Below, piece after piece: positions 44,044 to 47,512 of a DNA stretch of 64,000 nt; within the stretch, counting starts at the first letter, position 1, and every line of letters begins with the position of its first letter. The DNA is from Ferruginibacter sp. Its GTDB lineage: Bacteria; Bacteroidota; Bacteroidia; Chitinophagales; Chitinophagaceae. The position numbers and the translations under genes are program-made. The notes beneath the pieces are model-generated. The model worked only from the letters and a program-made list of their open reading frames with translations. It was not told the DNA's origin and did not search any database. The stretch lies in assembly GCA_019638635.1 (NCBI GenBank), contig JAHBTM010000003.1, forward strand, positions 30,724-94,723, written 5' to 3'.

Positions 44044-45477
44044 ATGGATAAAGGATTAGAAAAAGTATGGGCAAACTGTTTGGAGATAATCAAGGATATT
44101 GTAGAATGGCAACATTTTAAAACATGGTTTGAACCGATTCGTCCGGTTGAGCTGAAAGATAAAGTTTTAACGATTCAGGTTCCGAGCCAGTTTTTTTATG
44201 AATACCTTGAAGAGCATTACGTATCTCTCTTAGCAAAAACACTGAAGCGCGAACTAGGTAGTGACGCGCGGCTTGAATACAGAATTATGGTAGATAGTGG
44301 TAATAGTCGCAATAAGCCACTCACCATGGATATTCCGGGTAACGGATACAAATCATACGCCAATAACGAAATGGACTTTCCGCTCATCATCAATAATCCT
44401 GTCAAGAATCCTTTTGTGATTCCCGGATTAAAGAAGATGCAGATTGATCCGCAACTGAATCAGTCGCACACCTTTGATGCCTTCATTGAAGGTGATTGTA
44501 ATCGGGTGGCACGCCGTGCAGGAAAAACCGTTGCTGAAAAACCGGGTACTACCTCCTTCAATCCCCTGGTATTGTATGGCGGTGTAGGATTGGGTAAAAC
44601 GCACCTCGCACAGGCCATAGGAAACGAAGTAAAACGCACCCATCCTAATAAGGTGGTGCTATATGTAAGCTCTGAAAAATTCATCAATCAGTTTATTGAT
44701 CATGCACGCAACAATGCAGTGAATGACTTTATACATTTTTATCAGATGATAGATGTGCTGATTATTGATGATGTTCAGTTTTTCAGTCGCGCTGAAAAAT
44801 CTCAGGATGCCTTTTTCTCCATCTTTAATCATCTCCATCAAAGTGGTAAACAACTGGTGCTGACCAGCGATAAATCTCCCAAAGACCTCGAAGGTGTACA
44901 GGAGCGTTTATTAAGTCGTTTCCGCTGGGGATTGAGTGCCGATTTACAGTTACCGGATTATGAAACCAAAATTGAAATCCTCGAGAATAAGATGAAACGC
45001 GAGGGTTTTGATATGCCCAAGGAAGTGGTGAAATACATTGCATACAATATTAACAGCAATGTGCGTGAATTGGAAGGAGCATTGATTTCCCTGTTGGCAC
45101 AATCTTCGCTCAACAAAAGAGAAATAGACCTGGAGTTGGCGAAAAAAGTATTACGCAATTTTGTAAAATCTTCCAGTAAGGAAATTACCATTGATGCCAT
45201 TCAAAAAATGGTATGTGAGTACTTTGATGTGCCATACGATAAACTGCTTCAAAAAACCCGAAAGCGTGAGATTGTTCAGGCCCGGCAAATCACCATGTTT
45301 TTGTCGAAGGCTTTCACCAAAAACTCACTCAAAACCATTGGCGAACATTTTGGAGGAAGAGACCACACCACAGTAATACATAGTTGTCAAACCGTTAAGG
45401 ATTTAATGGACACCGACAATCTGTTCAAGGAAAGTGTATTGGAGCTTCAGCAGAAAGTACAGCTGGCGGCAATGTAA
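44044..45477 (+). CDS. dnaA: Chromosomal replication initiator DnaA
   Basis: 477 residues. Domain I from WANCLEIIKDIVEWQHFKTWFEPIRPV; short domain II; AAA+ domain III with Walker A GGVGLGKTHLAQ near residues 178-189 and Walker B VLIIDDVQFF near 237-246; domain IV with the DNA-binding helix GGRDHTTVIHSC near 438-449. Binds DnaA boxes and opens oriC with ATP. ATG at 44044. No dnaN next to it, as is common in this phylum; tRNA genes follow. Confidence 0.98.
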   Translation: MDKGLEKVWANCLEIIKDIVEWQHFKTWFEPIRPVELKDKVLTIQVPSQFFYEYLEEHYVSLLAKTLKRELGSDARLEYRIMVDSGNSRNKPLTMDIPGNGYKSYANNEMDFPLIINNPVKNPFVIPGLKKMQIDPQLNQSHTFDAFIEGDCNRVARRAGKTVAEKPGTTSFNPLVLYGGVGLGKTHLAQAIGNEVKRTHPNKVVLYVSSEKFINQFIDHARNNAVNDFIHFYQMIDVLIIDDVQFFSRAEKSQDAFFSIFNHLHQSGKQLVLTSDKSPKDLEGVQERLLSRFRWGLSADLQLPDYETKIEILENKMKREGFDMPKEVVKYIAYNINSNVRELEGALISLLAQSSLNKREIDLELAKKVLRNFVKSSSKEITIDAIQKMVCEYFDVPYDKLLQKTRKREIVQARQITMFLSKAFTKNSLKTIGEHFGGRDHTTVIHSCQTVKDLMDTDNLFKESVLELQQKVQLAAM

Positions 45478-45525
45478 ACGGTACCCCCCTTTTCTAAAAA
45501 TATATTCTATTACAGTCTATAAATG

Positions 45526-45557
45526 TTTGGGTAGTATAGAATTGAATTGTATTTTTG
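45526..45557 (+). promoter_or_regulatory. Promoter of the tRNA-Ser/tRNA-Pro unit
   Basis: TTTG at 45526-45529 and TATTTTTG at 45550-45557, spaced 20 bp: the best full match to the Bacteroidota -33/-7 consensus in the window. Ends 22 bp before tRNA-Ser. Confidence 0.75.
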
Positions 45558-45579
45558 CAGCCCCTGATTCAGGGAAGAA

Positions 45580-45670
45580 GGAGAGGTGCCTGAGTGGCCG
45601 AAAGGGCCGGTTTGCTAAACCGTTGTACGGACTTCAATCTGTACCGAGGGTTCGAATCCCTCCCTCTCCG
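45580..45670 (+). tRNA. tRNA-Ser(GCT)
   Basis: 91 nt. Acceptor GGAGAGG pairs with CCTCTCC, discriminator G; anticodon loop TTGCTAA (anticodon GCT, reading AGC/AGU); long variable arm GTACGGACTT...GTAC typical of tRNA-Ser; T-arm GGGTTCGAATCCC. CCA is not encoded. Confidence 0.97.
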
Positions 45671-45686
45671 CTGAATTTGTTTCGTT

Positions 45687-45761
45687 CGGGATGTAGCGTA
45701 GCCCGGTTATCGCGCCTGGTTTGGGACCAGGAGGTCGCAAGTTCGAATCTTGCCATCCCGA
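45687..45761 (+). tRNA. tRNA-Pro(TGG)
   Basis: 75 nt. Acceptor CGGGATG/CATCCCG, discriminator A; anticodon arm CCTGG-TTTGGGA-CCAGG (anticodon TGG); T-arm GCAAG-TTCGAAT-CTTGC. CCA not encoded. Directly followed by a terminator and by a tandem array carrying related sequence blocks. Confidence 0.97.
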
Positions 45762-45770
45762 CAACATCAA

Positions 45771-45797
45771 GCCTTCGATTTTTCGAGGGCTTTTTTT
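45771..45797 (+). terminator. Terminator of tRNA-Pro (first of six in the array)
   Basis: GCCTTCGA, TTTT loop, TCGAGGGC (eight pairs, one G-T), then seven T. The same hairpin recurs five more times downstream. Confidence 0.9.
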
Positions 45798-46276
45798 ATG
45801 TAGATGTATCGCGTCCCGACGACTTTGTGTCGGGAAGATGCATGTTCGAATACTGCATCACCAACGTGCCTTCGATTTTCGAGGGCTTTTTTATATCGGA
45901 ATGTATCGCGTCCCGACGACTTTGTGTCGGGAGATGCATGTTCGAATGCTGCATCACCGACGCCTTCGTTTTCAGAGGCTTTTATGTTGATGGCCATCGC
46001 GTCCCGACGACTTTGTGTCAGGAAGGTGCATGTTCGAATACTGCATCACCAACGTGCCTTCGATTTTTCGAGGGCTTTTTTTATGTAGATGTATCGCGTC
46101 CCGACGACTTTGTGTCGGAAAGGTGCATGTTCGAATACTGCATCACCAACGTGCCTTCGATTTTTCGAGGGCTTTTTTTATGTTGATGTATCGCGTCCCG
46201 ACGACTTTGTGTCGGGAAGATGCATGTTCGAATACTGCATCACCAACGTGCCTTTGATTTTTCGAGGGCTTTTTTG
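45798..46276 (+). repeat. Tandem array of five tRNA-3'-like/terminator units
   Basis: Five units with CCCGAC stems starting at 45815, 45912, 46003, 46100 and 46197 (spacings 97, 91, 97, 97 bp). Each unit runs ATCGCG, hairpin 1 CCCGAC-loop-GTCGGG, hairpin 2 GATGCA (or GGTGCA)-loop-TGCATC with GTTCGAAT in the loop, CACCAAC, then the tRNA-Pro terminator hairpin and a T-run (terminators near 45868, 45962, 46056, 46153, 46250). ATCGCG, GTTCGAAT and the terminator occur in the same order in tRNA-Pro. GATGCA and GGTGCA both pair with TGCATC, and the altered last terminator (GCCTTTGA) still pairs through G-T, so structure is kept while sequence drifts. Apparent protein reading frames here are artefacts of the repeat. 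Confidence 0.9.
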
Positions 46277-46468
46277 TTTGATGTAATCGAGTTCTAAAGA
46301 CTATTTTTCGGGGTGTATTTTAGGGAGCACAATTGTTATTAAAGCAATCAAAGGGTAGCCTGCTACGAACAGAAAGGTTCGATTCAGCCTGCATATGGGT
46401 ACACATCATGCAGGATTACACACGGTTTGTATTCCTGTAGCCGGTATAATTTCGTATATGCTTTGCAG

Positions 46469-47512
46469 TTAGTTCAGTTCAGCTTCCTGCATTTTCTTTT
46501 GTGGATGCAAGTATCGTTTTTCAAAATCAGCTTTGCTGTCGCGGAAAGAAGTCACCGCGCCCAGTTTATAAAGGGTATAAATGTATATCCAGGGTAAATC
46601 TAACTGATACTTCAAAAACCCCGCCCTGGCACTGCCGGGATACAGGTGATGGTTGTTATGCCATTCTCCGGCAAATAATCCCGGGCGCATTTGATTGAGG
46701 GATAAGTTTCTTCTGTCGAAATCAATTCCATCTACATGCTTCTCTTCCCCTTTACCATGGCCGGTATAATTAAATGCACGTACAAAAATGAACCAGAACA
46801 TCGAAGCGCTGAATATAGTACAGGCCAAGGCATGACCGCCAATCCAGTAGGTTACTCCGTACCAGAATGCCCAGTTGAAAATCCACATCAGGATGTTATA
46901 AAAAGGGTTTGTGGCCGAACCCCATCGCTGATAGCCCTTGTAACTATTCAGCGGAACACCGGTGTTCCGCATAAAATGAAGCACTTTATTATAATCCTCT
47001 TCACTCAGGTTCTTAGATATGCTCTGATGATTTACGTCTGATAACATACAGTACATAAAACCTCCCCGCGGATTGTAAGGGTCGCCCGGCTCATCTGATT
47101 TCGAATGATGCACATGATGCGATACCACATATATCTCCTCCGGAAACGTACGAATGACCAGGTTTTGAGTAATGAATCTGAAAATGGGATGACGGAATGT
47201 ATACGATTTGTGGGTGCAATAGCGATGAAACCATATCGTGCCGTGTGTGCCCATGATAATCATGGCGTACACCAAAAACACCACCAACATCGTAACCGAA
47301 AAATATTCAAAGAGGAAAAAATAAAAGAATGGCACCATACAAACTACCATCAGCCAACTGATGAGAGATATCCAGTTTCTTTTGTCCTTAAAAACATTTA
47401 TCCTGCGAAATGCTTCCTTAAATAACGTTTTAACGGTAGGTTTTATGAGTTCACCCTTTTCATCACTCCAACCGTAGGACGGTTCCTGTAATACACGATC
47501 AATAAATGCCAT
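46469..47512 (-). CDS. Acyl-CoA (delta-9-type) fatty acid desaturase
   Basis: 347 residues. Three His boxes of the di-iron membrane desaturases: HRYCTH near residue 95, HHVHH near 132 and HNNHH (WHNNHHLYPGSAR) near 273. Four hydrophobic segments (for example WISLISWLMVVCMVPFFYFFLFEYF). It introduces a double bond into acyl chains and adjusts membrane fluidity. The ATG at 47512 (MAFIDRVLQEPSYGW) is chosen over the upstream TTG at 47542. The 178 bp between the repeat array (ending 46276) and its stop, 46291-46468, hold nothing I recognise. Confidence 0.93.
   Translation of the reverse strand: MAFIDRVLQEPSYGWSDEKGELIKPTVKTLFKEAFRRINVFKDKRNWISLISWLMVVCMVPFFYFFLFEYFSVTMLVVFLVYAMIIMGTHGTIWFHRYCTHKSYTFRHPIFRFITQNLVIRTFPEEIYVVSHHVHHSKSDEPGDPYNPRGGFMYCMLSDVNHQSISKNLSEEDYNKVLHFMRNTGVPLNSYKGYQRWGSATNPFYNILMWIFNWAFWYGVTYWIGGHALACTIFSASMFWFIFVRAFNYTGHGKGEEKHVDGIDFDRRNLSLNQMRPGLFAGEWHNNHHLYPGSARAGFLKYQLDLPWIYIYTLYKLGAVTSFRDSKADFEKRYLHPQKKMQEAELN

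Follow-up and report, generated by a model that had tools for sequence, protein, structure and literature searches.

The window, that is, the whole 64,000-nucleotide stretch of Ferruginibacter sp. DNA analysed here, carries at 44044–45477 a gene that we take to be dnaA, upstream of tRNA-Ser(GCT) and an intact tRNA-Pro(TGG) (Table 1). Behind tRNA-Pro lies the sole tandem array called by TRF, spanning 45771–46275 with a period of 97 bp, 5.3 copies and a score of 813. Its five units follow one another at spacings of 97, 91, 97 and 97 bp, as described in the first-pass annotation of this DNA, the TRF call and the unit starts being in agreement; aligned with one another they have a mean column identity of 92%. 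The six terminators in a row reported there are likewise found, since the terminator scan returns six terminator-like sites from 45769 to 46269, all on the plus strand, against a mean of 1.1 in shuffled sequence. A search of the draft genome, 2.57 Mb in 127 contigs, found the array a single time. The second genome match of the array query is tRNA-Pro(GGG), not another array, and a mechanical frame of 250 aa across the array, which translates tRNA sequence, was not taken for a gene.

Table 1. Features of the tRNA-Ser/tRNA-Pro locus and the array behind it, in window coordinates.
Feature	Position	Strand	Basis and details
TATTTTTG, possible Bacteroidota-type −7 box upstream of tRNA-Ser	45550–45557	+	Pattern TAnnTTTG
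tRNA-Ser(GCT)	45580–45671	+	ARAGORN; Rfam tRNA, 54.8 bits
Intact tRNA-Pro(TGG), putative parent of the units	45687–45762	+	ARAGORN; Rfam tRNA, 68 bits
tRNA-Pro terminator, itself belonging to the repeat	45769–45797	+	Terminator scan; TRF array starts at 45771
Unit 1	45798–45894	+	5′ remnant; hairpin TCCCGAC..GTCGGGA 45814–45835; T-arm-like hairpin 45837–45859; terminator 45868–45886
Unit 2 (91 bp)	45895–45985	+	Hairpin 45911–45932; weaker terminator 45962–45979
Unit 3	45986–46082	+	Hairpin 46002–46023, one pair broken; terminator 46056–46075
Unit 4	46083–46179	+	Hairpin 46099–46120, one pair broken; terminator 46153–46172
Unit 5	46180–46276	+	Hairpin 46196–46217; terminator 46250–46269

A unit consists of a short 5′ remnant, the hairpin TCCCGAC..GTCGGGA, a T-arm-like hairpin around GTTCGAAT, a tRNA-Pro-like flank and a terminator. 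Two hairpins and a copy of the tRNA-Pro terminator, previously claimed for every unit, are found in all five, and alignment agrees with the claim that ATCGCG, GTTCGAAT and the terminator stand in the order in which tRNA-Pro has them. When a unit is aligned with tRNA-Pro the order of the tRNA is kept, the D-arm is mostly gone and the anticodon arm is replaced by the first hairpin. The remnants ahead of this hairpin read ATGTAG in units 1 and 4 and TATCGCG in four of the five units. The window units, degraded in their 3′ part, retain no exact 11-letter piece of tRNA-Pro. Each unit appears to be a degraded copy of tRNA-Pro in which a TCCC...GGGA hairpin takes the place of the anticodon arm, a relationship suggested by the order of the elements, by the terminator and by an intermediate form in a relative, described below.

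The differences between units had also been said to keep the pairing, so that structure seemed selected. For the second hairpin the pairing is kept (6/6 in all units; in units 3 and 4 an A to G change turns one pair into G-T), whereas the first hairpin pairs at 7/7, 7/7, 6/7, 6/7 and 7/7 positions in units 1 to 5. Because it loses a pair in units 3 and 4, the array by itself does not demonstrate selection on structure; within-array covariation was rejected as proof on the same ground, and the claim of selection is not borne out by these changes. What support there is for kept self-complementarity comes solely from comparison across genomes, for the tRNA-Asp members of the element family.

The array query matches 49 of 59 related genomes, mostly at the tRNA gene; no relative among the 59 matches the whole array, only the tRNA and pieces. 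The best loci were fetched; tRNA-Pro(TGG) is present in 30, the window among them, and three of the 30 (L010, L011, L015) have almost no downstream sequence. The loci were read and tested for extra tRNA-Pro pieces, with the degraded L001 and L005 judged by eye, and units of various forms were detected at nine of the 30 (L001, which is the window, L005, L007, L008, L013, L020, L021, L022 and L030). L008 has a 104-bp repeat in 3.2 copies, L020 a 90-bp repeat in 3.0 copies plus a GIY-YIG ORF, and L021 a 137-bp array that lies upstream and is built of the tRNA 5′ half. In L007, which like L020 has a GIY-YIG ORF at tRNA-Pro(TGG), a hairpin and then an exact tRNA 3′ half come after the ORF. The layout in these two loci is an intact tRNA, a terminator, the GIY-YIG ORF, a tRNA copy broken by a hairpin, and a terminator. 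L031 was dropped as a unit-bearing locus, its tRNA match lying upstream and looking like a tRNA-Ser T-arm.

Outside these 30 loci, a pattern search brought up L037 in genome G078, at the same dnaA–tRNA-Ser–tRNA-Pro locus. Two units stand there 132 bp apart, with the stem TCCCGAC..GTCGGGA between GCG and A as in the window, an exact tRNA 3′ half (T46–76) and a terminator after the first. G078 seems to be a bridge between the decayed window units and clear tRNA copies, and the window units have the traits of the family: this hairpin, with the same bordering letters, in place of the arm, a T-arm-like part and a terminator. A PF01541 search finds no GIY-YIG ORF on the window's contig, array included, so the family membership of the window array would rest on homology with G078 and other relatives, and with no such ORF between the tRNA and the units the window is better described as a remnant than as a full member. 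The exact pattern of the window hairpin in genome contigs and a looser form of it in viral contigs gave no match, in scans that perhaps lay outside the own genome; the hairpin sequence itself is on this evidence unconserved. A pattern with an exact tRNA half finds units in only 3 of 93 genus genomes because most copies vary in arm and hairpin, and this counts against one simple unit.

The third reading offered earlier, after integration relics and a tRNA-derived repeat family, was of processed small RNAs. An array of this kind, comparable to the repeats behind E. coli tyrT, would be co-transcribed with tRNA-Pro and processed, its products acting as RNAs or sponges. Such a role is suited by the folding of every unit, which is better than in shuffles (z −2.0 to −3.9), and by the terminator at its end, but a terminator also precedes every unit, and no signal for transcription from within was seen. 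The motif TAnnTTTG, presumably the Bacteroidota-type −7 promoter box, does not occur inside the array; its single match between 43724 and 48738 is the one at 45550 ahead of tRNA-Ser. This match is a possible promoter of a tRNA-Ser/tRNA-Pro transcript and a weak one, since the motif is rarer in the whole window than in shuffles (42 matches versus 63.6). Sigma-70-type sites are absent from 45480–46400 as well, by a consensus that does not fit Bacteroidota. Further points against the small-RNA reading are the pair-breaking changes in the hairpin, the lack of any unit at 21 of the 30 tRNA-Pro loci (3 of the 30 being without downstream sequence) and the differences between the occupied ones. At the Rfam gathering score tRNA is the only family in the window. 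At E up to 5 in 45480–46500 the matches other than tRNA and an antisense hit across tRNA-Ser bear sRNA and leader names, all weak and short of the gathering score. We consider the small-RNA reading very improbable, and six terminators and little conservation weigh in the same direction. Integration relics and a tRNA-derived repeat family pointed the right way, as the insertions of relatives carry a second tRNA 3′ half and a terminator; that earlier reading lacked the replacement of the anticodon arm, the GIY-YIG ORF of the relatives and the involvement of other tRNAs.

The ORF is not foreign to the genome of the window. Four PF01541 matches occur there, and the two short ones sit at tRNA-derived units. 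In L033 (contig C18, 1260–1823, minus strand) tRNA-Asp is accompanied by a GIY-YIG ORF and two tRNA-Asp-derived units with different hairpins. One of these units has an A+T-rich palindrome in its T-loop. At the end of contig C70 (L002, 1502–1733) the unit behind tRNA-Pro(GGG) has hairpins in both the D-arm and the T-arm. Similar units surround a GIY-YIG ORF at the start of contig C77 (L032, 1–560), so that C70 and C77 are probably contiguous within a tRNA-Pro(GGG) array. For the genome of the window this places the GIY-YIG form at tRNA-Asp and, probably, across the contig break at tRNA-Pro(GGG).

In the genus, PF01541 matches occur in 92 of 93 genomes, long UvrC-like frames included. Among the matches listed, which stop short of the weakest, we took 114 loci, 110 of which hold 132 domain matches by a purpose-built profile; removal of three duplicates and one long ORF left 106 short-frame GIY-YIG loci, and one further short-frame match (G028 C37, L020) was read outside this set. 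Among these listed matches a same-strand tRNA or tmRNA lies no more than 400 bp upstream in 57 of the 106 loci (51 within 120 bp, 6 at 121–400 bp), 38 have none upstream, and 11 begin less than 300 bp from the upstream end of the stretch. Sixteen of the 38 fall together on one side of a branch (support 100/99), and the stretches fetched for them contain no tRNA at all; this clade serves as a built-in control. In 11 of the other 22 a tRNA or tmRNA call lies just downstream; the call in L093 looks like a broken copy, and in L141 and L144 a plain tRNA-Met lies 132 bp downstream. Outside the control clade and the stretch ends, linkage is thus 57 of 79 upstream with 11 more downstream, against 0 of 16 in the control clade (Fisher test, p = 2.8e-8, computed with 57 vs 21 where the locus tally gives 22). 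For 22 of the 90 non-control loci there is neither an upstream tRNA nor a stretch edge that would explain its absence.

The arrangement also occurs in mirror form (L074, L115, L118, L062), with an upstream tRNA 5′ part that has a hairpin in the D-loop region and an intact tRNA downstream of the ORF. The palindrome CCTGCCTGCCGGCAGGCAGG stands in D-loop regions of tRNA pieces of different isotypes in L074, L115 and L118, and elsewhere in L066. Across genomes it lies in or adjoins pieces of tRNAs of several isotypes (Arg, Leu), at locus L041 too and, with one letter changed, at L062. GIY-YIG ORFs also stand beside tmRNA genes (L130, L140), and the ORF of L130 has a hairpin and a copied tmRNA end behind it. 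L145 (G026 C3) has five tandem full tRNA-Asp elements with an exact period of 365 bp, 98% alike. A second GIY-YIG clade, one without tRNAs (L047, L060, L086, L087, L096), adjoins repeats of the form TGTCATCCCGAG..GGGATGACA or TGTCATTCCGA... In public Flavobacteria records, as we understand it, such ORFs often begin with translated tRNA sequence.

Beyond tRNA-Pro the layout is found at a wide range of tRNAs and at tmRNA, and in other Bacteroidota. A scan of genome contigs with an alignment of seven GIY-YIG proteins, from six tRNA-Asp loci and one tRNA-Ser locus, found 292 relatives, of which 78 loci were kept, 11 of them taken as already in the genus set. A tRNA lies within 200 bp upstream in 42 of the 78 and just downstream or overlapping in 6; 30 have none, 17 of which show a tRNA-Asp-like tail by pattern, and since the query was drawn from tRNA-linked genes these fractions are no census. 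Ten loci stand on contigs filed outside Bacteroidota (Deltaproteobacteria, Desulfobacteraceae, Nitrospiraceae, Ignavibacteriae, Elusimicrobia, Patescibacteria, Peregrinibacteria), seven with an upstream tRNA, two with a downstream one and one with neither; these are metagenome-assembled and could be misbinned. Phage and plasmid collections gave distant GIY-YIG matches only (13 and 1 records, below 60% identity).

The five domains of relatives that were tested all score above the PF01541 cut-off, as stand-alone GIY-YIG ORFs, and one also passes T5orf172; NCBIfam holds no fitting family for the five. Across 26 GIY-YIG sequences Y6, Y17, G19, R27, H31, E63 and K67 are invariant, residues that we take to be those of the GIY-YIG catalytic site, and their retention would fit an active enzyme. 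By sequence the nearest solved chains are 1zg2 and 1ywl, both UPF0213 proteins, and SLX1, whose name describes a structure-specific endonuclease; for this reason we favour the view that the enzyme may cut branched or hairpin DNA. A tree of 105 sequences, from a short alignment and omitting one broken ORF that was too short, was labelled by tRNA target, 'none' and 'end' included; the labels need 35 changes, shuffled labels 63.7, and none of 200 shuffles comes as low. Clustering is seen for Met, Val, Ser(TGA), Ser(GGA), Glu and Arg(ACG) and hardly for Asp (5 changes versus 5.9; 43 of 500 shuffles as low), while Ala, Leu(TAA) and Arg(TCT) show no clear clustering on this tree. The nuclease lineages show partial target specificity.

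Comparison of sites with and without the ORF was possible at tRNA-Met, upstream of a gene that we take to be era. Among 30 loci, 6 are occupied by a GIY-YIG ORF and a hairpin copy, 1 holds an ORF-less remnant (L154) and 13 are empty with an intact tRNA; the rest are one unrelated stretch (L168) and nine without a readable tRNA at that place. Empty sites consist of the tRNA, its terminator and a flank with an ATTCT-like start (except L165), occupied ones of tRNA, terminator, ORF, hairpin copy, terminator and then a similar flank. From tRNA to the next gene the distance is 576 bp in the occupied form versus about 200 bp in the empty form, so that the insert adds about 0.4 kb. The complete tRNA-Met sequence is present in all seven occupied or remnant loci. 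These sites point to an insertion that spares the tRNA gene, with gain and loss both compatible.

Hairpin–tRNA junctions were placed by script in 81 of 97 loci, at least 3 of the 81 not being inserts (two terminators and one tRNA arm), and were not found by script in the other 16. Among 75 distinct hairpins, 56 end in TCC[CG]..[CG]GGA, and at tRNA-Asp two junctions recur, 38 to 50 (11/36) and 40 to 51 (6/36). Because the script had asked for hairpins, the tRNA-Asp inserts were sought again by anchors alone, segments resembling a normal arm being omitted. An end-to-end stem of at least 6 bp is present in 18 of 24 distinct inserts (200 shuffles: mean 0.2, at most 2), and when right halves are re-dealt among rows the Watson-Crick pairs fall from 161 of 168 to a mean of 124.9, the largest of 2000 re-deals giving 141. 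The tRNA-Asp inserts, by both controls, vary in sequence yet keep their self-complementarity; the inserts being related, neither control is to be read as a probability.

The copies beyond the ORF track the tRNA beside which they lie. With the 12 placing letters left out and same-family tRNAs alone compared, the tail of the 3′ copy is exact in 38 of 54 loci, and the copy is closer to its own tRNA than to the best differing tRNA of the same family in 42 of 49 (tie in 3, worse in 4). A first version of the own-tRNA comparison (39/61 exact; 53/54) was biased and discarded, the own tRNA having placed the copies and tails of unequal length having been left unaligned. Common descent of neighbours or gene conversion can each suffice for such tracking. 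The flanks that follow the tRNA and the copy are similar in only 33 of 67 loci.

These comparisons bear on the simplest account of the window, passive tandem duplication, by which tRNA-Pro and its terminator were duplicated, one copy decayed and replication slippage produced the array with no mobile element involved. The decay of the units, with pairs broken in units 3 and 4, agrees with it, as do an array matched in no relative beyond the tRNA and pieces and the absence from it of a GIY-YIG ORF. It does not lead one to expect units of other forms at 8 of the 29 tRNA-Pro loci besides the window and at numerous tRNAs of other kinds, hairpins at recurrent arm positions with a GIY-YIG ORF between, or self-complementary inserts in 18 of 24 cases at tRNA-Asp. 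In its pure form passive duplication is opposed by the replacement of arms by hairpins and by the GIY-YIG link across loci, and we judge it quite unlikely, while slippage or unequal recombination is the likely last step in the window.

The hairpins could also be REP-like palindromes spread by another enzyme, with GIY-YIG genes hitchhiking at tRNA 3′ ends, which are common insertion sites. This would suit the occurrence of one palindrome in the D-loop regions of several isotypes (L074, L115, L118 and nearly L062) and elsewhere in L066, and the separate GIY-YIG clade that adjoins TGTCATCCCGAG..GGGATGACA repeats. The replacement of tRNA arms at recurrent positions (the two Asp junctions above), a GIY-YIG lineage that partly follows tRNA type and 3′ copies that track their own tRNA argue the other way, and this explanation appears unlikely.

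In our view the window array is probably what is left of a small mobile element resident in tRNA genes, a remnant that has no ORF, has decayed and has been amplified in tandem. In its complete form, as seen in relatives, the element comprises an ORF for a GIY-YIG (UPF0213/Slx1-like) nuclease and at least one GC-rich hairpin (TCCCnnn...nnnGGGA) that replaces an arm of a tRNA gene copy, usually its anticodon arm. It brings a second tRNA 3′ half and terminator, so that one tRNA stays intact and the hairpin-broken copy lies beyond the ORF; the mirror form sits 5′ of the tRNA. The nuclease may cut the tRNA gene, perhaps at an extruded arm, and repair of the break could copy the element into the cut gene. 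The direct repeats of tRNA 3′ half and terminator might then recombine unequally to give arrays, and in the window the ORF would have been lost and the repeats would have drifted. The parts of this scheme that are observed are the architecture, the empty and occupied tRNA-Met sites, the partial target specificity of the nuclease lineages, the self-complementary inserts, the 3′ copies that track their own tRNA and the tandem amplification; activity, excision or transfer of the element was not seen in these loci. A more far-reaching proposal, which we put forward tentatively as possible rather than probable, is that these are minimal mobile elements of a new class. In this scenario a structure-specific GIY-YIG nuclease would cut hairpin-prone arms of tRNA genes, repair would install the ORF together with a hairpin 'scar' that immunizes the broken copy, duplication would keep the tRNA working, and ORF-less hairpin-tRNA units, the window array being one case, would spread as non-autonomous satellites.

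Several known systems share some of these features. Islands and phages with tyrosine integrases enter tRNA 3′ ends, duplicate the 3′ part and restore an intact tRNA; 3′ duplication and an intact tRNA are shared with the elements described here, whereas the tRNA-Met insert of about 0.4 kb would hardly accommodate a usual integrase. In E. coli the rtT repeats, represented in Rfam by the RtT family, follow the tyrT gene and, as here, repeat a tRNA 3′ part in tandem. They differ in that the window gives no RtT match at gathering score, nor does 45480–46500 at E up to 5, and we know of no arm-replacing hairpin or GIY-YIG relatives among them. REP/RAYT systems combine GC hairpins with a small neighbouring nuclease gene, a Y1 transposase, and have non-autonomous copies; in the present case the partner is GIY-YIG rather than a Y1 transposase, and the hairpins lie in tRNA arms.

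A closer likeness is to SegB of phage T6, a free-standing GIY-YIG homing endonuclease that is co-located with tRNA genes of many isotypes and is needed for tandem amplification of a tRNA segment via homologous recombination (PMC13096335). The link of a GIY-YIG nuclease to tRNA genes and the tandem amplification are common to both, as far as the portion of that account compared here goes. SegB is phage-borne, and a hairpin-replaced tRNA copy is not mentioned in that portion (PMC13096335), whereas the present elements lie in genome assemblies and encode a small UPF0213/Slx1-like domain. Bacterial tRNA genes can also harbour group I introns that carry homing endonucleases, and one such endonuclease, to go by a title cited there, acts at the tRNA anticodon region (PMC3984707). 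So far as that excerpt reaches, the tRNA gene as target (its anticodon region there), the endonuclease ORF and the preserved function of the host tRNA are alike. In our case no self-splicing intron was found (no group I intron in the window at Rfam gathering score, nor in 45480–46500 at E up to 5) and the intact tRNA is located outside the element, kept whole by the presence of a second copy and not by splicing. An intact tRNA beside a copy with an arm-replacing hairpin is absent from the SegB and group I intron accounts, within the parts compared. Among the papers listed in a survey of the open-access literature none describes tRNA-linked GIY-YIG elements in cellular chromosomes, which does not prove that such a description is lacking.

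Taken alone the window array is a modest relic, and the interest lies with the element family. An odd repeat becomes a marker for a parasite of tRNA genes that is seemingly common in Bacteroidota and perhaps reaches further, and many short GIY-YIG genes annotated by domain only gain a likely role. Empty and occupied sites allow the study of how a homing-type element could live in essential tRNA genes without harm to them. Some caution is due with tRNA finders, which sometimes call the broken copies (L093, for example). In one genome (G066 C4, L036) a GIY-YIG ORF with an in-frame stop stands behind tRNA-Pro(GGG) and is followed by a tRNA 3′ half that resembles the TGG type, as though a unit had passed from one tRNA gene to another.
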